A stretch of DNA of 64,000 bases from the NCBI GenBank assembly GCA_018065305.1, contig JAGHTO010000004.1, positions 1-64,000 of the forward strand. Reading direction: 5' to 3'. The notes beneath the pieces are model-generated. The model did no database searches and had not been told where the DNA came from. It saw nothing but the letters and a program-made list of their open reading frames with translations. How positions within the stretch are numbered: position 1 is the stretch's first letter; each line of letters begins with the position of its first letter. Source of the stretch: Candidatus Cacconaster scatequi. Its GTDB lineage: Bacteria; Bacteroidota; Bacteroidia; Bacteroidales; UBA932. Positions 22,974-46,048 of this stretch are shown here, one piece after another. The translations under genes and the position numbers were made by a program.

Positions 22974-24047
22974 ATGAAAAAGGTTTATAACTTCAATGCG
23001 GGCCCGTGCGTTCTGCCGCAGGCCGCAATAGATGCCACAATCGAGGCTCTCAAAGATTTCAAGGGTACAGGGATTCCGGTGATAAGTGTTTCCCACAGAA
23101 CGAAGGAGTGGGATGCGGTGATGGACGAGTGCCGGAGTCTGTGGCGCGAACTTCTTAATATTCCTGATACACACGAAGTGATTTTCCTCGGAGGCGGAGC
23201 TTCTCTCCAGTTCCTTTACGTCGCGATGAATCTTCTTGAGAAAAAGGCGGCCTATCTTGAAACAGGTGTGTGGGCAAAAAAGGCTCTCAAGGAGGCCAAG
23301 GGGCTTGGAGATGCATACGCAATAGCTTCTTCCGCCGACAAGACCTATTCCTACATTCCGAAGGGGTATGAGATTCCTTCCGATCTGGATTATTTTCATA
23401 TCACGACGAACAATACCATCTACGGCACGGAGATAAAATATGATATGGACTGCCCTGTCAACCTTGTGGCGGATATGTCGTCCGATATAATGAGCCGCCC
23501 GGTTGACGTTTCAAAGTACGCCTTGATTTATGGAGGCGCGCAGAAGAACGTCGGCCCCGCCGGCGTCGCTTTTGCAATCATCCGCAAGGATGTCCTCGGA
23601 AAGGTGAGCAGATATATCCCCACGATGCTTGACTACCGCACCCATATCGACGGCCTGAGCATGTTCAATACTCCTCCTGTGTTCGCGATTTTCATTATGA
23701 ACGAAACTCTCAAGTGGCTCAAGGGCTTGGGCGGAATTGAGGCTGTTCATAAGCTGAATGAGGAGAAGGCGCGTGTACTTTATGAGGAAATTGACAGGAA
23801 TTCCCTGTTTGTGGGTACTGCCGCCAAGGAGGACCGCTCCATAATGAATGTCTGCTTCGTGATGGCTCCCGGCAAGGAGTCTCTTCAGGACGAGTTCTTT
23901 GCTTTCGCCAAGGAGCGCGGAATGGTCGGAATCAAGGGACACCGCAGCGTTGGAGGCTTCCGCGCTTCATTGTACAATGCCTGCCCCGTAGAGGCTGTGA
24001 ATGCTTTGGTCGCCTGTATGCAGGAATTCGAGAAACTTCACAAATAG
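22974..24047 (+). CDS. serC: Phosphoserine aminotransferase
   Basis: The 357-residue PLP enzyme converts 3-phosphohydroxypyruvate and glutamate to O-phosphoserine. Conserved parts include [11 protein letters not shown] at the start, [29 protein letters not shown] and the PLP-lysine loop [13 protein letters not shown]. The C-terminus has [15 protein letters not shown], which binds the substrate phosphate. Length is typical. It lies 9 bases before serA and heads the serine-biosynthesis trio. Confidence 0.96.
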
Positions 24048-24056
24048 TAGCAGGCT

Positions 24057-24980
24057 ATGAAGATATTGGTGGCGACTCAGAAGCCTTTCGCAAAGGCTGC
24101 AACTGACGGAATAATCCGCATCGCGGCAGAGAACGGACACAGTGTCACTCTGCTTGAAAAATATGAAGGGCAGGAACAACTGATTGCTGCTGTGGCGGAT
24201 GCTGATGCACTCATAGTCCGCTCCGACAAGGTGACGGCGGCTGTCGTCGAGGCTGCTCCAAACCTGAAAATCGTGGTCCGTGCAGGTGCCGGATTCGACA
24301 ATCTGGACCTGGAGGCCTGCAGTGCACACAAGGTGGTGGCGATGAACACACCGGGACAGAATTCCAACGCAGTGGCGGAACTTGCCATCGGACTGATGAT
24401 ATATATGAACCGCAACCAGTTCACTCCCGGCACTGGCCGTGAGCTGAAGGGTAAGACAATAGGAATTCAGGCATACGGCAATGTCGGCCGTCTGGTGGGT
24501 GCTCTCGCACAGGGATTCGGAATGAAAGTCCTTGCCTTCGACCCCTTCCTGAGCGCGGAAAAGATTGAGGCTACGGGGGCGGAGGTCGCCTCAAGCCTTG
24601 AGGAACTCTATTCAAAATCCGATTTCGTTTCCCTCCACATCCCCGCAACCGAACAGACAAAAGGTTCGATAGGATATGATTTGGTTTCGCGGATGCCCAA
24701 AGGTGGATGCCTGATCAATACTGCCCGCAAGGAAGTGATTGACGAAGAAGGACTTGCCAGGATATTGTCCGAGAGGGAGGATTTGCGGTATGTGGCTGAC
24801 GTGGCCCCTGAGAGGGCTGCTGAATTCGCTGAGAAATTCGGAGCCCGGTATTTCGCTACACCCAAGAAGATGGGCGCCGAGACAGCCGAGGCGAACGTGA
24901 ACGCCGGTCTTGCGGCCGCTTCCCAGATTTGCGGCTTCTTCGCCACGGGCGACACGAAATTCCAACTAAACAGATTCTGA
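24057..24980 (+). CDS. serA: D-3-phosphoglycerate dehydrogenase, short form
   Basis: The 307-residue 2-hydroxyacid dehydrogenase oxidises 3-phosphoglycerate in the first step of serine synthesis. RAGAGFDNLDLEA and NTPGQNSNAVAELAIGLMI belong to the substrate domain; IGIQAYGNVGRLVGALAQGF replaces the usual GxGxxG with a related loop. NTARKEVIDEEGL and the late PKKMGAETAEAN segment follow. The regulatory ACT domain of long SerA proteins is absent. The final active-site His region (normally PHIGA) reads TPKKMGAETAEA, a variation common in this short type. Confidence 0.93.
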   Translation: MKILVATQKPFAKAATDGIIRIAAENGHSVTLLEKYEGQEQLIAAVADADALIVRSDKVTAAVVEAAPNLKIVVRAGAGFDNLDLEACSAHKVVAMNTPGQNSNAVAELAIGLMIYMNRNQFTPGTGRELKGKTIGIQAYGNVGRLVGALAQGFGMKVLAFDPFLSAEKIEATGAEVASSLEELYSKSDFVSLHIPATEQTKGSIGYDLVSRMPKGGCLINTARKEVIDEEGLARILSEREDLRYVADVAPERAAEFAEKFGARYFATPKKMGAETAEANVNAGLAAASQICGFFATGDTKFQLNRF

Positions 24981-34911: not shown

Positions 34912-35922
34912 TCAGGAACGACAGAGTTGGATGACTTGCTTCATCCTGCTTTCGTAGTTATGCTGCTGAACAACAATTGCGTGGGCTGCTTGTGCATTTG
35001 CCGACTTATCGTGAGCCAAGGCATCAGAAATAGCCGCAATCAATTCATCGTCCGTCTTAAACAACCCGATTTCTCCGTGGGGGAAAATAGATTTGATGTA
35101 CGGATTCGAATCAGATATTTGATACGCACCACTACCGCAGATTTCAAAGAGCCTTGGATTGGCCCCGTCTCTTTGGTCTTCACGATGGATATTCAACACT
35201 ATTCTGGATCGGCTATAATATTTGTTGGCATCTTCCGGAGAGACATTTCGGTTGGTATAGATGTCACGCCTTTCTCTGAACAGGCACTTAATGATACCTT
35301 TGTACCAGGGCTTGTATTCACCAATCACCTTGATTTTTCTGTCGGGGAAGGCTTCTATGATTTTTTGTATTGTTTTTTGTCTGTTGGGATAAAAATATAA
35401 GTTTCCAACGAAAAGAATGTCGATGTCTTTTTTGCTGCCTGCAATAGGGAAATAGGTCTTCATATCACAAGCTTGAGGTAGAAAGGAGGATTTCAATCCA
35501 TTTCCTTCGAGGACCTTGATGTCGTTCTTGTCAAAACTGAAGATATGGTCGCAATGTCTGAGATTATCAATAATGCCCGGCATCTTTGAAATGTTGTCGA
35601 AGAGCCAAATTGCGACGTGGGTGGTATTACACAAATAATCGAGTGTCCTTGAATCGAGAAAGTCCCCATTCATAATGAAAACCAAGTCAATCCGGCCATT
35701 GTTCTTGATGGCCTCGCGTACTTTCAATGCATAGTGTTCCTTATGCCTCCTTTCAACCCGGACATTAATCGGTTTGCACCGAATTTTCATAATGCTCTTC
35801 TGCAAAAAGGAAAAGTCTGTGTACGGTAAAGAGCAGGTCTGGCAACCCAAAGCGCTGAAGGCGTTGTCAACGGCAGAAATGAAATGAAAATAATCCGGGC
35901 CAAGTATCAGTACTTTTTTCAT
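34912..35922 (-). CDS. CgeB-like glycosyltransferase
   Basis: The 336-residue GT-B type protein has an N-terminal nucleotide-fold start (MKKVLILGPDYFHFISAVD) and a C-terminal half with DILFVGNLYFYPNR, VLNIHREDQRDGANPRLFEI and CGSGAYQISD, the donor-site signature of the CgeB/Glyco_trans_1_2 group. It probably adds a sugar to a surface glycan. It starts immediately after the LicD stop (adjacent codons) and is cotranscribed with it. Confidence 0.85.
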   Translation of the reverse strand: MKKVLILGPDYFHFISAVDNAFSALGCQTCSLPYTDFSFLQKSIMKIRCKPINVRVERRHKEHYALKVREAIKNNGRIDLVFIMNGDFLDSRTLDYLCNTTHVAIWLFDNISKMPGIIDNLRHCDHIFSFDKNDIKVLEGNGLKSSFLPQACDMKTYFPIAGSKKDIDILFVGNLYFYPNRQKTIQKIIEAFPDRKIKVIGEYKPWYKGIIKCLFRERRDIYTNRNVSPEDANKYYSRSRIVLNIHREDQRDGANPRLFEICGSGAYQISDSNPYIKSIFPHGEIGLFKTDDELIAAISDALAHDKSANAQAAHAIVVQQHNYESRMKQVIQLCRS

Positions 35923-36744
35923 TCAATCAGAATATTGTGGAATAGGGTATATCTCCAAATGAAAAGTATGTCCTTCTCTTTGATTTTCAGGAGGTAATTT
36001 CGAATAATCATTAAACATATCTTTGAGATATGAATCATAATTGCCCGGGGCAAAAAACAGATGCCCTTCAAATGCGATTTCTGTCAGGGGAAAAATATTG
36101 CTCAAATATCGAGGATTTTTAAATCCTGCATAATAACGTCCTATCAAATCGCATTTTGCAATGCTGGCATATGCTCTCAATGCTTCCAACAATGTCCATA
36201 CGAAAGGAAAGAGGATATATGCTGCGGTCTTGGCAAAAGTCCTTTTGGCAATTGATGTATATGCCGTATCTCCATAGTTATGCATTTCTCTGGATACTCT
36301 GCCATAAATGAGGTAAACAAGATGCTGAACTGCCATTGAGGGAATCCTCTCAAGCAGCACGACATCAAGGAACAGGCCTCTATGCTTCTGCAATCGTTCG
36401 ATGGGAATGTCAATGAATGAATGCTTGTCGCGAATTCTCGGAGACATCTCAAAATGGTGGGGGTCGGTAGTCCAATCCTGGTAAACGAAACAATCTGAAA
36501 GATGTCTGTTCATGGCTTTCTTAAACCGTTTGTAATCCTTCTTGAGGATGCATATATCCAAATCATCGTCCCAAGGAATAAACCCCTGATGCCGTACGGC
36601 TCCCAGAAGCGTTCCGGCATCCATCCAATAATCAATCTTTTCCTGCCGACAGATCCTGTCAACTTCTATCAGAATATCGAGCATCCTGAGCTGAGCCTTC
36701 CGTAAAATTGATTCGGGAGGATTGTATCTGTTCAAATTGTCCAC
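35923..36744 (-). CDS. LicD family phosphotransferase
   Basis: The 273-residue protein starts at GTG 36744. The LicD core is MDAGTLLGAVRHQGFIPWDD followed by DLDICILKKDY, the nucleotidyltransferase-fold metal site. LicD proteins transfer phosphocholine, or related phospho-groups, from a CDP carrier to glycans; some relatives act on phosphoribitol or phosphoethanolamine. A hydrophobic stretch near 165-190 may hold it to the membrane. The gene and its surroundings look markedly AT-rich compared with the rest of the window. Confidence 0.85.
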   Translation of the reverse strand: MDNLNRYNPPESILRKAQLRMLDILIEVDRICRQEKIDYWMDAGTLLGAVRHQGFIPWDDDLDICILKKDYKRFKKAMNRHLSDCFVYQDWTTDPHHFEMSPRIRDKHSFIDIPIERLQKHRGLFLDVVLLERIPSMAVQHLVYLIYGRVSREMHNYGDTAYTSIAKRTFAKTAAYILFPFVWTLLEALRAYASIAKCDLIGRYYAGFKNPRYLSNIFPLTEIAFEGHLFFAPGNYDSYLKDMFNDYSKLPPENQREGHTFHLEIYPIPQYSD

Positions 36745-36817: not shown

Positions 36818-38335
36818 ATGTCAACAATTGACAGAAATAGAATAGCAATAAATACGCTTATGCTTTATCTTCGCATGGGCGTGGTTCTGCTTATCAGTCT
36901 TTATACCTCACGCGTGATTCTTGACGTGCTGGGAGAGACGGATATGGGAATATACAATGCTGTCGGCGGGCTTGTCGCTATGGCAACTTTCATAGGCGGA
37001 ACTTTATCTTCAGCCTGCCAGCGCTTTTTTCTGATAGAGATGGGAGAGAGTAGGCGGATCGGACTCAGGAATTCATTCTGTATGTTTTTGCAGATGTTTG
37101 CCGCATTGGCCATCCTTGTGATTGTTGTGGGAGAGCCTGCGGGGTTGTGGTTCCTTAACAATAAGATGTTGCTTGCGGGACGGTCGGAGGCTGCCAATTG
37201 GGTATTCCATCTCAGCATTGTTTCCTTTGTCTTTGTCGTGATACGGCTGCCATATCAGGGAATGGTAGTCGCTCGTGAAAAGATGAAGGCCTTTGCATAT
37301 ATTGGGGTTTTTGAGGCGGTGGGAGCCTTGGCAATAGCTCTTATGCTCGAGCATTCGAGCGCTGACCATCTGGTGGTTTATACGGCTTTGATGCTTGGAA
37401 TACAGGTGGTTGTGACGCTGCTGTATATGGTTTATTGCCTGATGTATTTTAGCGAGTGCCGTTATAAGTTCCATTGGGATGCGGGCTATTTTAAAGAGAT
37501 ATTCTCTTTTTCCGGCTGGTGGATGATAGGCTCTGCTTCAGCAGTGTTCAAGGTGCACGGCCTTAATGTTCTGCTGAATATGTTTTTCGGGCCTGCGGTA
37601 AATGCGGCCAGAGGAATGGCTTTCAAGGTTTACGGAGCCATTGTCCAACTTCAGGAGAATTTTATGCTTGCATCCAAGCCCCAGATTATAAAATCATATT
37701 CCAATGGAGAATATGGAGAGATGACCAGGCTCATTTGGCAAGCTTCCAAATATTCCGCTTATCTGATGCTGCTCGTTGCAATTCCTGCTGTTCTGGAGAT
37801 CGATTTTCTGCTGGGAATATGGCTTAAGGAAGTTCCTCAATATACCGCAATCTTTGCGGTATTGATGCTGGTGGAAGCATTGATTGGATATATTGATTAT
37901 CCGGTGCAGTCCGCCATATCGGCGACAGGGAAGATAAAATGGTATCAGATTGTGGTGGGCTTTATTTCTTTGATATTCCTTTCCGGGTCATATCTTATGC
38001 TAAAGTTGGGGCAATTTCCCCCACAGTCCGTATTTTATGTTTCAATCGCGATAGCTTGTCTTGCAGTAATTGTCAAGTTGTATTTCGGCTGGAAACTTGT
38101 CGGAATTGATCCCTGGGAATTTTCATTGAAAGCAATCCTCCCTGTGTTCTTCGTGATGGTTTTGGGCGTAGCGTCAGGGCATGTAGTCAAATCCGCTATG
38201 GATCAAGGATGGTTGCGACTTGTTTTGGTTACCGTTGCCAGCACAATGACTCTGGTGTTTTCCGTGCTTTCATTCGGGATGACTTCAAAAGAGAGGGGGA
38301 CCGTCCTCAAAAGGATACGGCAGTTCATTTCTTGA
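36818..38335 (+). CDS. Wzx-like polysaccharide flippase (MATE/MOP superfamily)
   Basis: The 505-residue membrane protein has about twelve to fourteen spans. It opens with a basic stretch, then MLYLRMGVVLLISLYTSRVI and LDVLGETDMGIYNAVGGLVA, the pattern of polysaccharide biosynthesis proteins that flip lipid-linked repeat units to the periplasm. An AGGAG ribosome site gives a well-placed ATG. The last 11 bases overlap the end of the convergent glycosyltransferase. No Wzy polymerase is recognisable nearby. Confidence 0.88.
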   Translation: MSTIDRNRIAINTLMLYLRMGVVLLISLYTSRVILDVLGETDMGIYNAVGGLVAMATFIGGTLSSACQRFFLIEMGESRRIGLRNSFCMFLQMFAALAILVIVVGEPAGLWFLNNKMLLAGRSEAANWVFHLSIVSFVFVVIRLPYQGMVVAREKMKAFAYIGVFEAVGALAIALMLEHSSADHLVVYTALMLGIQVVVTLLYMVYCLMYFSECRYKFHWDAGYFKEIFSFSGWWMIGSASAVFKVHGLNVLLNMFFGPAVNAARGMAFKVYGAIVQLQENFMLASKPQIIKSYSNGEYGEMTRLIWQASKYSAYLMLLVAIPAVLEIDFLLGIWLKEVPQYTAIFAVLMLVEALIGYIDYPVQSAISATGKIKWYQIVVGFISLIFLSGSYLMLKLGQFPPQSVFYVSIAIACLAVIVKLYFGWKLVGIDPWEFSLKAILPVFFVMVLGVASGHVVKSAMDQGWLRLVLVTVASTMTLVFSVLSFGMTSKERGTVLKRIRQFIS

Positions 38336-39356
38336 ACTCCTCTGCTCCGTTTTGTGCGAATTTGTAGGAAATGGAAAAATAGTCATACATAGTTATTGGG
38401 AAGAACAAGGCTCTCCCGGATGCTATTATCGTGCTTCTCTCTTTTGAAAAGAAAATTTTGTCGCGGTTGCGAATAAGTTCCGTAATAAAAAAGAAATAAC
38501 CTTTCTTATATGCGCTGATAATCTTCAAAGCATCTTTGGAGAAAGGAGCATCCGGAAAATATCCCAGAAGGTTGGCCATATTGTCGAATCGTTTTTCAAT
38601 AAGAGGCTTTACCACTCTACGGTATTCGGGTTTCAAATTCCGGATCAGTTTTCGTATGGCGTTGGGCAGGTTTCTTTTTGATAAATTTTTTCTGTTCGAT
38701 TCACTTACGGAAGTGATAAGTCTCCTGTGGTAATCAAGCGGTTCAACAATGCATCCGACTTTGCCATAAGCGTTGGCGACTATTGACAGCATTGCATCAT
38801 AATAATAGGATTCTCCTATTTTTCTGAGCTTTTCATCCGGAACGGAATTGCGGGCCTTGTCACGCAATTCCTTAGTGAACAACATTGTGTGCCCGGGAAC
38901 GCTGCCTAGGAACAACGTCCTTTCCAAACCAAAGTTGGGCATTCTTTTGTCGTAGTCCGGGTTTTTGGGGACTTCATCTCCTTTGAACGGGACGGTGATA
39001 TGGAAACTTATCCATAAATCCTGTTCTTTCAGTGCCTTAACCTGTTTCTCAATTTTATCTGGCCTCCAAATGTCATCCTGATCGCTCCATGCAATCAGGT
39101 CACACGTGGCTCGGTCAATGGCAGTGATGAAGTTGTTGTTAATTCCCAGTCTGTCGGTTGTGGTGAAAATCTTTATCCTGCTGTCGTTCAGAGCATATTG
39201 CTCTAGAATTTCCTTTGTTCCGTCCTTACTTTGATCGTCTTGGACAACGATTTCGGATATGGGATATGTCTGGGCGAGGATACTGTCCAGTTGCTCACGA
39301 ATGTACTGAGCCCCGTTATATGTGCAGATAACAATGGAGACGGATGGAGATGTCAT
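38325..39356 (-). CDS. Family 2 glycosyltransferase
   Basis: The 343-residue enzyme starts at ATG 39356 (MTSPSVSIVICTYNGAQYI); the much longer open frame upstream runs over the end of the cyclodeaminase-like gene and is not credible. GT-A motifs are QDDQSKDGTKEIL and the DxD ATCDLIAWSDQDDIWRPDKI. It resembles rhamnosyl- and galactosyltransferases of O-antigen loci (WcaA type). It is 46 bases downstream of the cyclodeaminase-like gene, within the same run, and converges with the flippase. Confidence 0.9.
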   Translation of the reverse strand: MTSPSVSIVICTYNGAQYIREQLDSILAQTYPISEIVVQDDQSKDGTKEILEQYALNDSRIKIFTTTDRLGINNNFITAIDRATCDLIAWSDQDDIWRPDKIEKQVKALKEQDLWISFHITVPFKGDEVPKNPDYDKRMPNFGLERTLFLGSVPGHTMLFTKELRDKARNSVPDEKLRKIGESYYYDAMLSIVANAYGKVGCIVEPLDYHRRLITSVSESNRKNLSKRNLPNAIRKLIRNLKPEYRRVVKPLIEKRFDNMANLLGYFPDAPFSKDALKIISAYKKGYFFFITELIRNRDKIFFSKERSTIIASGRALFFPITMYDYFSISYKFAQNGAEEFKK

Positions 39357-39402: not shown

Positions 39403-40368
39403 TTATATCCAATATTTCTCCGCCTCTTTGGCAACCGATGTTTCGGGAATGTCCTGCCTTTTCTTGATAAGCTCATATATTCTGGAGGCAAAAAACACAT
39501 CATGCAATCCCAGACCGTAGTTGTAGTCAATAATTCTCTGTTGATTTGATTTACGGCCCTTGTCCCTCCCTGCAAGAACTTCGCCTATTTCGTTGTAATC
39601 CTTGAACTGGCTGAAATATCTGAACCCTTTGATGTGGTCGGTATCATCCCCGAATACTCTGTCGAACGTTGTGTCACAATTCTGCAAACCACGCATATGA
39701 ATGGGGATTACGGTAACGCCAGGTTGAAAAATGCTTTCGTCTTCAACGAGTAATCCGTCCGCACTCGTAATACAACTGAAAAAGACATCGGAAGAACGGG
39801 CCAATTCTTCAATGCTATCAACAATTTCAAATTGAACGTTTATATGATTTTTAAACCTGCTGATGAATGAATCAGCGGTATCTTTGTATTTTAATAATTT
39901 GACCTTGAATAATTTGTCTGGTTCTGCCTCGAGAATGCAAAGAAGTGTCGCGCGCGCGGTATTCCCCAATCCAACAAAACCATAAATAGATGCGTTCTCT
40001 TTTCTCAGGGCTTTGGCTGAAACAGCAGCAACTGCTCCTGTCCGCATTGCCGTAATCCAATCGCAATCCAAAAGAGCCAGCAACTCGCCGTTTTTTGCGT
40101 TATACAACATCATATCGCTTCCCAGACTGGGAATGGCACCGGCAATTCTGTGAACTTCCTTTACTCCGAAATATTGAATATTCCCGTTCTTGTCAGGTGG
40201 AAGCAGGCAGGGCATTGAAGTAAAAAAATCGCTGTCGGCAGGGTGAACACTGACTTTGGCCGGTAATTGTGCATCTCTCTTGATGCTGAAACTTTCATAA
40301 ATCCAGTCAACGCATTGCTTGGGGGAGATGCCAAGAGAACGGATTATCTGTCCGGATATCACTTTCAT
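39403..40368 (-). CDS. Ornithine cyclodeaminase/mu-crystallin family dehydrogenase
   Basis: The 321-residue protein has the family's substrate domain (QLPAKVSVHPADSDFF, MRTGAVAAVSAKAL) and a Rossmann half with GFVGLGNTARATLLCI. Members include ornithine cyclodeaminase, alanine dehydrogenase, ketimine reductase and SbnB, which oxidises an amino-acid conjugate. The position between a glycosyltransferase and the nucleotidyltransferase/PLP fusion suggests it makes or uses an amino compound for glycan decoration. The exact reaction is not predictable. It is 9 bases after the fusion gene. Confidence 0.82.
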   Translation of the reverse strand: MKVISGQIIRSLGISPKQCVDWIYESFSIKRDAQLPAKVSVHPADSDFFTSMPCLLPPDKNGNIQYFGVKEVHRIAGAIPSLGSDMMLYNAKNGELLALLDCDWITAMRTGAVAAVSAKALRKENASIYGFVGLGNTARATLLCILEAEPDKLFKVKLLKYKDTADSFISRFKNHINVQFEIVDSIEELARSSDVFFSCITSADGLLVEDESIFQPGVTVIPIHMRGLQNCDTTFDRVFGDDTDHIKGFRYFSQFKDYNEIGEVLAGRDKGRKSNQQRIIDYNYGLGLHDVFFASRIYELIKKRQDIPETSVAKEAEKYWI

Positions 40369-40377
40369 AATGCAGAG

Positions 40378-42192
40378 TTATTCTAAACTTTTCAGTGCCT
40401 CGACAAGTTTTGCATTGTCATTGTGGCTTCTTATTGCGATGCGCATATATTGCTTGCCGCAGAGGCCTTTCTTGGAAGAACAGTCGCGGGTGAGGATGTT
40501 GTGATTCTTAAGCAATTTTATCACAAGGTTTGCCGCCTTCTTCGGGGGAATGACTTCAACAAGGAAATAGTTTGCCTGTGATGGCATCACCTTGAAGAAA
40601 TTGATTGTCCGCAGTTTTTCTTCGAAATCTTTTCTTTCGGCTATGAATGCGGAGCAGGCCTTCGCGTAATCTTTTTCATACTTTGTGAGAATCTGCATAA
40701 AATATTCGGCAAAGCTGTTGATGTTCCAGATGCTGACGGAATGCTTTAAATCCGCAATCAGATCTTTGTTGGCGGACGCAAGGATTCCGAGCCTGAGGCC
40801 GGGCACGCCGTAGCTCTTGCTGATGCTTTTCATCACAATCATATCAGGATATTGTTCCAGAACGGAATCCTGCAAAAGCGAACTTGTTCCCCAGCTGTCG
40901 CAGAAGTCCACGAAACTTTCATCAACCAGCAGCCGTGTTCCCCTCTCCTTGCACCAGGTGGCAAGTTTCAGAATATCATTGAACGGTATGAAATTGCCGG
41001 AAGGGTTGTCGGGGTTGACCAAAAACAAGGCGTCAACCGGCTGTGCTCCGAAGAATTGAATCAAATCTTCCGCTGTGTAGCGGAAATCATCTCTGAAAGG
41101 GACGAAAGTTACCTCCTGCTCTGGCTTTAGCCTGTTAGGGTATTCTTCGAAAGTGGGGCGGATGATTCCTACTTTCCCTGAAATCTTTTCTGTCAGAAGT
41201 TTTATCAATTCGGCCGCCCCGTTCCCCGGGACAATGTAATCCTCTTTAACTTTCCAACATTTTGAGGCCAGCAGCGTGTTGACTTTTATCCCGGACGGAT
41301 ATTGTGTAAGCAGGGTTGCGAAATTGGCCTGCATCTCATCAAGAATTTTCTTTGAGGGAAAGAATGGATTGACAAGATAGCAGAAGTCAAGGAGTTTCGG
41401 GAATCTCCAGTAACCGCCGAACCTTCCGTAAAATTTTCTCAGGACATCTTCGTCATCTGCGAAAAGGGCTTCCGCAATGTCGAGATCCTGTTTGTCGTCT
41501 ATTTCATACCACTTTTCGCCGGTGACGGGAAGAGCCTTCAAATCGTGCGAGTTCAGGAAAGAGAGGATTCGGAGAACATTCTCATAATATTCATTGTTTC
41601 CAACAGCGGTGGAATAGGCTTCAAGGAACGGGACGTACTTCGTCCGGCTGAATTCTTTGGAGAATTTGTAGATGTTGGCGGTCTTGTAATAACTGTCTGC
41701 TTCGCTGTACCGGAAGGCGTCTTTTGTTATGAAGCTGACGATATTGTTGTCTTCATCCAACCTCACCATCGTGCCGTCATTCCAGGATTCGTACTTTGAT
41801 ACAAGCGCCAGATTCGGGTGCGGATCAGATATGAGTTTCTCCAGTAGAGCACTTTCAAAAATCAAGTCGCTCTCAAGGAGGATTGTGTCGTCCTCGCACA
41901 ACCTGTCCTTTGCCAGGAACAGAGAATAAATATTGTTCGTCCTGTCGAATACAGGGTTTGTGATGTATTCGATTCTCAATTTTTCGTCAAACCTGTCTCC
42001 GATATGATTCATCAGATTCTGCCCCTGATAACCTACAACAATCACGACCCGCGAAAGGCCAAAATTCGACAGTTGGTCAAGCATTCTGTCTATCAGGCAA
42101 ATGCCGTTGACAGGGACCATACATTTCGTATTGTCTTTAGTGTATTTCCCAAGTCTTCTGCCCATTCCGGCAGCCAAAATTATAGCTTGCAT
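40378..42192 (-). CDS. Fusion of LicC-like nucleotidyltransferase and CobD-like PLP enzyme
   Basis: The 604-residue protein has two domains. Residues 1-245 are a nucleotidyltransferase: LAAGMGRRLGKYTKDNTKCM loop, metal-binding ESD (107-109) and the EIDD segment near 230-233 as in CTP:phosphocholine cytidylyltransferase. Residues 255-604 are a fold-type I PLP enzyme: VPGNGAAELIKLL, NPDNPSG (393-399), VDESFVDF, the PLP lysine in SISKSYG (K459), and RDCSSKKGL (569-577), a form typical of CobD threonine-phosphate decarboxylase. It may decarboxylate an O-phospho-amino acid and activate the phospho-amine with CTP. A histidinol-phosphate-type transaminase reaction remains possible. Confidence 0.85.
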   Translation of the reverse strand: MQAIILAAGMGRRLGKYTKDNTKCMVPVNGICLIDRMLDQLSNFGLSRVVIVVGYQGQNLMNHIGDRFDEKLRIEYITNPVFDRTNNIYSLFLAKDRLCEDDTILLESDLIFESALLEKLISDPHPNLALVSKYESWNDGTMVRLDEDNNIVSFITKDAFRYSEADSYYKTANIYKFSKEFSRTKYVPFLEAYSTAVGNNEYYENVLRILSFLNSHDLKALPVTGEKWYEIDDKQDLDIAEALFADDEDVLRKFYGRFGGYWRFPKLLDFCYLVNPFFPSKKILDEMQANFATLLTQYPSGIKVNTLLASKCWKVKEDYIVPGNGAAELIKLLTEKISGKVGIIRPTFEEYPNRLKPEQEVTFVPFRDDFRYTAEDLIQFFGAQPVDALFLVNPDNPSGNFIPFNDILKLATWCKERGTRLLVDESFVDFCDSWGTSSLLQDSVLEQYPDMIVMKSISKSYGVPGLRLGILASANKDLIADLKHSVSIWNINSFAEYFMQILTKYEKDYAKACSAFIAERKDFEEKLRTINFFKVMPSQANYFLVEVIPPKKAANLVIKLLKNHNILTRDCSSKKGLCGKQYMRIAIRSHNDNAKLVEALKSLE

Positions 42193-42202
42193 ATCTTTGC
42201 TT

Positions 42203-43315
42203 TTAGGGGCGTTGTGCCGTTATGATTTTCGCCATCTTCTTCCACGAGTATTTCCGTTTCTCATCCCTGATGCCTTCTAGGAAGTCCGGGGAATCTTTCA
42301 GGAATTTTTCCAGAGCTGCAGTGATTGCGGCAGGGGAGGGATTCACGGTATATCCAACCTTCCCGTCAGGGACAATTTCGGGGAGTCCGCCGACGCGGGT
42401 GACGAGCATAGGCTTCTCAAAATGGTAGGCTATCTGCGTAACTCCGCTCTGGGTGGCTGATTTGTAAGGCTGTACAATCAGGTCTGCTGCGCAGAAATAG
42501 TATTTCACTTCACTGTCGGGAACGAATTCCGTACGCCAGATGATTTCGTCGTCAATTCCGAGGTCCCGGGCGAGTTTATGATATTTCTCGCCGTCGGCAT
42601 AGAATTCTCCTGCGACAACCATTTTTACGCCCGATCTCTCTTTGAGAGCGGCAAACGCTTCAAGCAGCCAGTCGAGACCCTTGTAGTCGCGAATCAGTCC
42701 GAAACTCAGCAGAATTCTGTCTTTCGGGTTGAGGCCGAGATGTCTGCATGCCTCCTCTCTTGAGACTGCTTCCCCGAAATTGTCGTACAGGGGATGCGGG
42801 CTGAAAGAAGCAGGTTTGCCGGGGTCCAGACTGTGAATGTCGCTCAGGACAGATTCCGACAAGGCTACGAACCTGTCAACACTTCTGCAGAAATATTTGG
42901 CCAGGAGCCTGTCTCCCGGCTTGTGCTCGTGAGGTATCAGGTTGTGAACCAGTCCGACGACGGGCGTCCCGCTGATTCTGGCAATCGTGCCCAGCGCCGG
43001 GGCCATATAGGGAAGCCAGAAAGCTATGATAATCAAGTCGGCTTTTCCCTTTTTGAGCTGATGTCCCACCTTAATCCAGTTGAAAGGATTCATCGAATTG
43101 ATTTTCCGCTCGATTCTCAAGCCTGCCGGAGCGGGCCCTTCGGAAAACTGAGTCTTGCCGGGGAAAAGGAATGACGGGTATTGCAAAGTAAAGGTAATGG
43201 CCTCGACATCATTGCCTTGGACAATCAGCTCGTGAGCCAGCCTCTCGTTGAATGCCGCTATTCCTCCCCGGTATGGATATGCCGGACCTATGATTATTAT
43301 TTTCTGTGAACTCAT
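42203..43315 (-). CDS. Family 4 glycosyltransferase
   Basis: The 370-residue GT-B enzyme starts at ATG 43315 (MSSQKIIIIGPAYPYRGGIA); a start 18 codons upstream would need an unsupported extension. The family signature is seen in AYPYRGGIAAFNERLAHEL, HNLIPHEHKPGDRLLA, and the C-terminal donor site YKSATQSGVTQIAYHFEKPM with LVTRVGGLPEIVPDG. It probably adds a hexose to the glycan. It is the first gene of a minus-strand run of four, 10 bases before the fusion gene. Confidence 0.9.
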   Translation of the reverse strand: MSSQKIIIIGPAYPYRGGIAAFNERLAHELIVQGNDVEAITFTLQYPSFLFPGKTQFSEGPAPAGLRIERKINSMNPFNWIKVGHQLKKGKADLIIIAFWLPYMAPALGTIARISGTPVVGLVHNLIPHEHKPGDRLLAKYFCRSVDRFVALSESVLSDIHSLDPGKPASFSPHPLYDNFGEAVSREEACRHLGLNPKDRILLSFGLIRDYKGLDWLLEAFAALKERSGVKMVVAGEFYADGEKYHKLARDLGIDDEIIWRTEFVPDSEVKYYFCAADLIVQPYKSATQSGVTQIAYHFEKPMLVTRVGGLPEIVPDGKVGYTVNPSPAAITAALEKFLKDSPDFLEGIRDEKRKYSWKKMAKIITAQRP

Positions 43316-43460
43316 CAGCGGAAGAAAATCATTTTTCAAAGATAATAAAAAGTCGAGGAATCCATTCATTCATTTAGATGGGAGGTGAAAGCGAGAAAAC
43401 GGAGCAAGGACTTGCGGCAGACAAAGAAAATTGGTATTATTGCAATATAATCTGTTTGTT

Positions 43461-44730: not shown

Positions 44731-45933
44731 CTATTCCGAAGTGTAGTTGTCAAAGTAGCCCTGTACAAGGACTATGGGAGTTCCCTTGTCTCCGGAGCCG
44801 CTTGTCAGGTCGCACAATGAGCCGATAAGGTCCGTCAGTTGCCGGGGAGTGGTTCCTTCGGAGGCCATCTGCCCCTTGAGGTCACTGCCCTTCGCCTTTA
44901 TGCTTTCGGAGATGGCATCCCTGAGCTGTGCTCCGCTGAGGTTTGCAAAGTCGTTGTCGGCCAGATATTTGAGCTTGAGTTCGTTGGGCGTGCCCCTCAG
45001 CCCGTCGGTGAATGCCGGGGAGACAACGGGGTCAGCCAGTTCCCAGATTTTGCCCTTGGGGTCCTTGAATGCACCGTCACCATAGACCATCACCTCGATA
45101 TGCTTTCCGGTGCGTTCCAGAAGCGCTTTCTGGATGTCCAGCACAAGGCCCTGGCATTCACGTGGGAAAAGTTTGACAGTATCTTCTGTGGCCTTGTTGG
45201 AGCCCAGCAGTCCGTATTTCTCGTTGAACCCGCTTCCATCCACGCTCTTGCAGAGGATGTCGTCGAGACCGAGAACAACCCTTGCCCCCGCCTCTTTTAG
45301 AATCCTCTTTGTCCGGGTGCGGGTGTGTATGTCGCAGGTGATGACGGTGTCGGTGTATTTCAGAATCGTTTCGGGCCTGTTGGCGAAGACCACCTCCACC
45401 TCGGCGCCGCATCCGCGGACAAGTTCCGAGTAGTATTCAACGTAATCGACTCCGGTGAATTCGTGCCTGTTCACACCGAAGAGCTCACGATATCTTTCAA
45501 GAGAGAGAACGTCTGAATATGGGTTGACGCCTGCCTGGTCAAGGGCATCTATGCTGACCAGAGAGTTCCCCACCTCGTCGGAAGGGTAGGAGAGCATCAG
45601 GACCACCTTGCGGCACCCCTTCGCGATGCCGCGAAGGCAGATTGCAAAGCGGTTGCGGCTCAGAATGGGGAAGATGACACCGACCGTGCCTCCTCCGGTC
45701 TGCTGCCGGACGTCGGATGAGATGGCGGAGACGGGGGCGTAATTGCCCTGAGCTCTGGCTACCACCGATTCGGTAATACTGACAATGTCTCTGTCTCTCA
45801 GTTCAAACCCCTCTTCAGTGGCCGCTTCCAGCACGCTTTCGGTCACTATCTTTGCAAGATTGTCTCCCTGCCTGATTATCGGGCAGCGGATGCCTCGGGA
45901 AACTGTCCCGACTTTTCTCTCGTGATTTTTCAT
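44731..45933 (-). CDS. CofE-like (F420-0:gamma-glutamyl ligase family) protein
   Basis: The 400-residue protein starts at ATG 45933, placed by a TATATTTG box five bases upstream. The N-terminal part recalls the CofE fold (GIRCPIIRQGDNLAKIVTES and DIVSITESVVARAQG), which in archaea adds glutamate to coenzyme F420. The C-terminal 250 residues include HTRTRTKRILKEAG and YGDGAFKDPKGKIWELADP. Bacteroidota are not known to make F420, so a different amide-forming or ligase role is likely. No biosynthetic partner is adjacent. Confidence 0.75.
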   Translation of the reverse strand: MKNHERKVGTVSRGIRCPIIRQGDNLAKIVTESVLEAATEEGFELRDRDIVSITESVVARAQGNYAPVSAISSDVRQQTGGGTVGVIFPILSRNRFAICLRGIAKGCRKVVLMLSYPSDEVGNSLVSIDALDQAGVNPYSDVLSLERYRELFGVNRHEFTGVDYVEYYSELVRGCGAEVEVVFANRPETILKYTDTVITCDIHTRTRTKRILKEAGARVVLGLDDILCKSVDGSGFNEKYGLLGSNKATEDTVKLFPRECQGLVLDIQKALLERTGKHIEVMVYGDGAFKDPKGKIWELADPVVSPAFTDGLRGTPNELKLKYLADNDFANLSGAQLRDAISESIKAKGSDLKGQMASEGTTPRQLTDLIGSLCDLTSGSGDKGTPIVLVQGYFDNYTSE

Positions 45934-45938
45934 ATCCG

Positions 45939-45946
45939 CAAATATA
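45939..45946 (-). promoter_or_regulatory. -7 box five bases before the CofE-like gene
   Basis: On the minus strand TATATTTG ends five bases before the ATG at 45933, so the message would be leaderless. A TTTG at -33 is not seen. Confidence 0.5.
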
Positions 45947-46048
45947 GTCATTTGTAAAAAATAAATCTTTGCCAACTTATTTTTTTGTTCAAGTCTCGCG
46001 TGTAAGTTGTCTTTTGTACACCAAAGATATTTTTTCAAATAAAAAATG

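Follow-up and report, generated by a model that had tools for sequence, protein, structure and literature searches.

The window, by which we mean the whole stretch of 64,000 nucleotides analysed here, from Candidatus Cacconaster scatequi, carries a bifunctional fusion gene on its minus strand (40378..42192) that starts with ATG and encodes 604 amino acids without an internal stop. The gene sits in a tight run on the same strand. Directly upstream, across a gap of 10 bp and in the same operon, is a GT4-type glycosyltransferase (42203..43369, minus; Pfam). Downstream, 9 bp away, is a dehydrogenase of the OCD/mu-crystallin family (39403..40368, minus; 321 aa; Pfam PF02423, 95.3 bits against a cut-off of 24), followed by a GT2-family glycosyltransferase (38325..39356, minus; Pfam Glycos_transf_2), the start of which was picked inside a longer open reading frame. 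Beyond these lie a probable Wzx-type flippase of 505 aa (36818..38335, plus), which has no Pfam match and is named from its sequence character and position; a LicD-family phosphotransferase of 273 aa (35923..36744, minus; Pfam LicD, 124 bits); and a glycosyltransferase of the WaaS/CpsH family (34912..35922, minus; NCBIfam NF053598, over cut-off). Judged by these assignments, the neighbourhood is that of a surface-polysaccharide locus. On the other side of the fusion, positions 44731-46038 encode a protein resembling F420-0:gamma-glutamyl ligase (PF01996, 189 bits); to our knowledge, the Bacteroidales are not a group known for making F420.

The initial annotation had described the fusion as a LicC-like nucleotidyltransferase joined to a CobD-like PLP half, and this description holds: the open reading frame is single and intact, and both Pfam domains score over their cut-offs. 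NTP_transf_3 (MobA-like) covers residues 3-134 (46.6 bits; cut-off 27) and Aminotran_1_2 (class I/II PLP) residues 315-600 (119 bits; cut-off 19.7). The AlphaFold2 model has a mean pLDDT of 93.3 over the entire chain. The combination of cytidylyltransferase and decarboxylase is already known, from FrbH; the new part is the dehydrogenase partner. FrbH and the partner were both missing from the initial annotation, and the partner is the more informative.

The fusion is widespread. Scanning genome contigs yielded 428 relatives; the 80 with the best scores, all full length and at 58-70% identity, were kept. Their hosts include Prevotella, Bacteroides cellulosilyticus, Hoylesella timonensis, Xylanibacter rarus and many rumen and gut MAGs. 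Nine other full-length fusions and one frameshifted copy occur in a sample of 295 genomes from the order, and remoter fusions (32-48% identity) in Fusobacterium, Priestia, Gloeothece, Erwinia, Rahnella and Pseudonocardia. Because the joint is kept in the 80 full-length loci and in relatives from whole genomes, it is no artefact. Domain architecture, relationships, gene linkage and natural fusions, here and below, are what the analysis shows. An apparent two-gene form in one genome (G266) was rejected, the split being a frameshift within a run of T. The fusion gene at L041:9960-10010 is broken by a frameshift at a T run, through sequencing error or in reality, and at L039:9079-10821 the PLP half lacks several conserved stretches (the PTFEEY and RDCS regions), the nucleotidyltransferase half being intact.

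The two halves of the fusion protein

The nucleotidyltransferase half (residues 1-250; 41443..42192, minus) is of the LicC/PntC type. NTP_transf_3 and NTP_transferase both score over cut-off, and membership of the LicC/PntC group is indicated by the presence of NTP_transf_3 over cut-off together with the GxGxR...K signature. The best relatives in the PDB are PntC (6pd1) and LicC (1jyk). The lysine of the signature, K23 (42124-42126), is invariant in the 54 of 54 fusions aligned, and changing the matching residue in FrbH (K38A) abolishes cytidylylation (PMC6697681). By sequence, this half is most likely a putative LicC/PntC-type cytidylyltransferase, with CTP as the predicted donor.

The PLP half (residues 251-604; 40381..41442, minus) is a predicted decarboxylase of the SMUL_1544/CobD kind, an assignment drawn from profile scores, fold and tree. 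Alignment to CobD identifies K459 (40816-40818), kept in 53 of 54 fusions, as the PLP lysine. The best-scoring NCBIfam model is the CobD profile TIGR01140, at 194 bits, under its equivalog cut-off of 290.55; the HisC profile TIGR01141 gives 156 bits, under its equivalog cut-off of 276.55. By profile, then, this half lies nearer the phospho-amino-acid decarboxylases than HisC, as had been supposed. A sequence comparison with the PDB gives 6oux as its closest entry (2.9e-44). The title of 6oux is 'Structure of SMUL_1544, a decarboxylase from Sulfurospirillum multivorans', and its sequence matches, with 100% identity across 344 aa, a plasmid protein that carries the annotation 'norcobamide biosynthesis serine-O-phosphate decarboxylase'. 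SMUL_1544 is thus the nearest solved relative, and both proteins have the motif DESF, but SMUL_1544 is a stand-alone protein, encoded alongside cbiB and cobU in a cobamide operon, and is ~30% identical to the PLP half. In the fold comparison 6oux (Z 37.8) ties with CobD (1lkc, Z 37.4). The fold is also that of transaminases, so the structure does not itself prove decarboxylation.

A tree of PLP domains was cleaned of three very long rows (L174, L053 and L172) and rebuilt; FrbH, Cj1436 and Cj1437 are not among its rows. In it the fusions, SMUL_1544, stand-alone relatives and the distant fusions form a set of 36 rows, a broad clade with several subgroups, set against 13 rows of CobD and HisC with support of 100/99. 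Seven HisC rows split off alone at 100/100, and support on whether the 36 rows lie nearer CobD or HisC is 44/28. All aligned members of the 36-row set have DESF, where CobD has DEAF or DEAY and HisC has DEAY. The initial annotation had looked to such a tree to separate the PLP half from HisC: the best tree does separate them, yet a tree constrained to unite the fusions with HisC has a p-AU of 0.058, which narrowly escapes rejection. The corresponding constraint with CobD has a p-AU of 0.081. The HisC reading was set aside on its lower profile score and its separate position in the best tree, with that p-AU value noted. The motifs RDCS and NPDNPSG, which had been offered as marks of CobD, are present but are not diagnostic, since N-P-x-N-P-[ST]-G is common to CobD and HisC and only 21 of 54 fusions have R at the first position of 'RDCS' (C571 is conserved in 53 of 54). 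Placement on the CobD side rests on the profile scores, fold and tree, and not on these motifs. The PLP half is nearest to the SMUL_1544 type of serine-phosphate decarboxylase, and is most likely, as predicted from sequence, a phosphoserine decarboxylase. Two other loci (L049:8233-12373 and L050:7939-11747) have a CobD-like PLP gene that joins SMUL_1544 in the tree (95/96) and is accompanied by glutamine-synthetase-like, Peptidase_C26 and HAD genes.

Substrate and product

The genome (96% complete) has no CbiB, no CobD over cut-off and no PEP mutase (PF13714), absences that speak against cobamide and phosphonate roles. A cobamide role was rejected on the first two, and a phosphonate substrate on the third. 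Phosphoserine, on the other hand, should be available, because the window contains a SerC-like gene beside a SerA-like one. The former (22974..24047, plus) is the proposed source of O-phospho-L-serine, a predicted phosphoserine transaminase that matches the full TIGR01364 model at 436.9 bits (cut-off 443.6) as well as Aminotran_5, and is the only TIGR01364 match in the genome; the latter, which adjoins it (24057..24980, plus), is a D-isomer 2-hydroxyacid dehydrogenase by Pfam.

Relatives elsewhere bear on the product. In some Bacteroidales a nucleotidyltransferase and a CobD-like PLP protein are encoded by separate adjacent genes, with a CDP-alcohol phosphotransferase gene next in line; in Rahnella a CDP-alcohol phosphotransferase comes after the fusion, and in Gloeothece a methyltransferase and LicD do. 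From such neighbours a CDP-amino-alcohol would be expected. The initial annotation had suggested that ethanolamine phosphate or aminopropanol phosphate is made and then activated as a CDP-linked donor. The best reading is CDP-ethanolamine from phosphoserine; threonine phosphate, the other substrate then considered, is unlikely because the genome lacks CbiB and CobD over cut-off. As the predicted product of the PLP half, ethanolamine phosphate is accordingly favoured over aminopropanol phosphate. The separate pair is found at Bacteroidales loci L042-L048 and L051, each with a third gene of similar size, a CDP-alcohol phosphotransferase by Pfam in L042 and L048, the two tested; this arrangement is possibly a Kennedy-type route to a lipid headgroup. 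A Bradyrhizobium plasmid (L147:4753-8737) has PEP mutase, cytidylyltransferase, CDP-alcohol phosphotransferase and CobD-like PLP genes in a row, possibly a phosphonoalanine decarboxylase route to a phosphonolipid.

Dehydrogenase partners

We compared gene neighbourhoods at 90 fusion loci, comprising the 80 best-scoring of the 428 relatives (mostly MAGs from related rumen taxa) and 10 others, which are not an independent sample. Immediately downstream of the fusion and on its strand lies a gene for an octopine dehydrogenase homologue at 49 loci and one for an OCD-family protein at 14, the window included, making 63 in total. LicD lies within five genes of the fusion in 65 of the 90. Neither dehydrogenase occurs within two genes of the fusion at 26 loci, 16 of which have LicD nearby; the opine step is therefore not universal, and for some of these loci the product may be plain phosphoethanolamine. 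The Fusobacterium fusion, behind which a dehydrogenase had been expected, has a DUF1015 gene in the +1 position and no dehydrogenase there.

Over its length, the octopine dehydrogenase homologue aligns with that of Pecten (2.6e-33). Partners of this type score over the PF02317 cut-off, and all 55 of 55 have counterparts of Pecten H212, R324 and D329, which we take to be its catalytic residues. On the tree of fusions (63 tips), the partner switches between the octopine dehydrogenase and OCD types about 13 times. Repeated switching is expected if the two types do the same job, although exchange of cassettes and errors in the tree inflate the count. Physical fusions occur as well: in a Muribaculaceae MAG (L119:10001-12841) nucleotidyltransferase, CobD-like PLP protein and octopine dehydrogenase form a single open reading frame of 946 aa, and at four loci octopine dehydrogenase is fused to LicD. 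Among the 295 genomes of the order, both partners are rare, the octopine dehydrogenase being found in 21 and the OCD type of the window in 5; co-occurrence of the fusion with either dehydrogenase has a Fisher p of 1.7e-7, uncorrected for shared ancestry.

The OCD protein of the window lacks, in our own alignment, counterparts of two active-site residues of alanine dehydrogenase. OCD-family proteins also perform other imine chemistry. In another genome (G229) a homologue that shares 57% identity with the OCD protein of the window immediately follows a fusion of PntC with AEP transaminase, which itself comes after PEP mutase and phosphonopyruvate decarboxylase; the mutase, the decarboxylase and the AEP transaminase all score over their equivalog cut-offs. 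This cassette would make CMP-AEP, a 2-aminoethyl amine, and if the OCD chemistry is the same in both places, the fusion product should likewise have a 2-aminoethyl headgroup, that is, be CDP-ethanolamine. From this one locus we infer that the 2-aminoethyl headgroup is what the two OCD settings share.

A second octopine dehydrogenase subfamily, at three Bacteroidales loci (L180:3689-6618, L183:5624-8559 and L184:5781-8725), lies beside a protein of conserved size (~620 aa), for which no Pfam match was found in L180 and L184, the two tested.

A candidate route to an opine headgroup

The route that we propose would begin with the PLP half, which would decarboxylate O-phospho-L-serine to ethanolamine phosphate. 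The LicC/PntC half would then couple ethanolamine phosphate to the CMP part of CTP to give CDP-ethanolamine. The OCD protein or octopine dehydrogenase would reduce the imine that this primary amine forms with pyruvate or a different 2-keto acid, so that the headgroup becomes the opine N-(1-carboxyethyl)ethanolamine, and LicD would move the phospho-headgroup from CDP onto a sugar of the glycan. We infer each of these catalytic steps, as well as which keto acid is used and whether activation precedes N-alkylation. The part leading to CDP-ethanolamine we consider probable from the sequence relationships; granted that part, N-carboxyethylation would be likely too. The whole, in which CDP-ethanolamine made from phosphoserine is N-carboxyethylated with pyruvate and transferred by LicD to glycan, we favour narrowly. 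More tentative, at somewhat under an even chance, is the broader proposal that many Bacteroidales possess all the enzymes for making CDP-[N-(1-carboxyethyl)ethanolamine] de novo, starting with phosphoserine, CTP and pyruvate, with interchangeable reductases and sometimes in one polypeptide, and that LicD then places this zwitterionic headgroup on a surface glycan. The stereocentre created in the alanine part may have opposite configurations depending on whether an octopine dehydrogenase or an OCD reductase forms it.

Coupling of amines to keto acids is the established reaction of the opine dehydrogenase family. Among the substituents found on Proteus O-polysaccharides is N-[(R)-1-carboxyethyl]ethanolamine phosphate (PMC9630907), and so both the chemistry and the type of product have precedents. 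Our search of open-licence papers found no CDP-linked or LicD-linked opine, and no description of how N-(1-carboxyethyl)ethanolamine phosphate is made. If the proposed route is correct, it would let cells equip surface polysaccharides with zwitterionic headgroups without taking up choline or ethanolamine, and would supply candidate genes for the N-(1-carboxyethyl)ethanolamine phosphate of Proteus O-polysaccharides. Zwitterionic surface structures matter for the immune recognition of gut commensals. The enzymes involved are few, and could be tested in vitro using commercial substrates.

Other explanations differ in where they depart from this route. The dehydrogenase might act elsewhere in the glycan pathway, with the fusion still making CDP-ethanolamine and LicD transferring plain phosphoethanolamine. 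That the fusion can work without a dehydrogenase is suggested by the 26 of 90 loci that lack both kinds, 16 of them with LicD; but the strict +1 position of the dehydrogenase in 63 of the 90, the natural fusions of octopine dehydrogenase with nucleotidyltransferase and decarboxylase and with LicD, and the OCD relative adjoining the CMP-AEP cassette make this unlikely. The same end product could also be reached in the order followed by FrbH, which has the same domain order and cytidylylates 2-amino-4-phosphonobutyrate before decarboxylating it (PMC8976061): phosphoserine would be cytidylylated first, and the CMP-linked amino acid then decarboxylated by the PLP half. We think this a good deal less probable than the proposed order, since the closest relative of solved structure, SMUL_1544, takes its name from free serine phosphate, and LicC and PntC use amino-alkyl substrates without a carboxylate (PMC6697681).

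Two further alternatives concern the PLP half itself. It shares its fold with transaminases, the p-AU of 0.058 leaves fusion and HisC together just short of rejection, and the Campylobacter capsule cluster holds a serinol-phosphate PLP enzyme as well as the phosphoserine decarboxylase Cj1436 (PMC12409886); a transamination, for example of dihydroxyacetone phosphate to serinol phosphate as by Cj1437, would lead to CDP-serinol or a similar product. We regard this as very improbable given the placement with SMUL_1544 (100/99, in a tree without Cj1436 and Cj1437), the higher CobD than HisC score, and an OCD partner held in common with a 2-aminoethyl cassette. The poorest candidate is CobD proper, converting threonine phosphate to aminopropanol phosphate for a cobamide or CDP-aminopropanol. 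TIGR01140 is indeed the best-scoring NCBIfam model, and the fold ties with that of CobD, but 194 bits is well under the cut-off, the genome has no CbiB, and the fusions lie apart from true CobD in the tree, though a forced grouping has p-AU 0.081; we give it hardly any weight.

Among known systems, FrbH of FR-900098 biosynthesis has an N-terminal cytidylyltransferase acting on 2-amino-4-phosphonobutyrate and a C-terminal decarboxylase (PMC8976061). It resembles the fusion in having cytidylyltransferase and PLP decarboxylase in a single chain, a comparison of described architecture and not of sequence, but it belongs to a phosphonate pathway, whereas the genome of the fusion is without PEP mutase and the gene lies among glycosyltransferases, LicD and a dehydrogenase. 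The PntC-AEP transaminase (6pd1/6pd2; PMC6697681) has a homologous, LicC-like N-terminal half and a PLP half that supplies the aminoalkyl substrate for it; that PLP half, however, is class V and makes AEP, while the fusion's is class I/II (Aminotran_1_2, not Aminotran_5). The LicC-LicD phosphocholine pathway likewise combines a cytidylyltransferase with LicD transfer onto a surface glycan, but uses imported choline, whereas an amino acid appears to be the de novo source of the fusion's headgroup. Cj1436 of Campylobacter jejuni is a phosphoserine decarboxylase that serves capsule synthesis (PMC12409886), but it is unfused and its product goes to glucuronic acid amidation, not CDP activation. 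The octopine dehydrogenase of Pecten (PDB 3c7a) and the SbnB/OCD family are imine-reducing homologues of the two alternative partners; the known enzymes use amino acids, whereas the amine proposed here is ethanolamine phosphate or CDP-ethanolamine. A distant fusion on the Priestia megaterium plasmid pBM700 (L148:3534-11638) lies by two ATP-grasp genes, an AAC(3)-family acetyltransferase and a plasmid copy of DXP reductoisomerase, a set that resembles a fosfoxacin/fosmidomycin-like cluster with a copy of the target for self-resistance.
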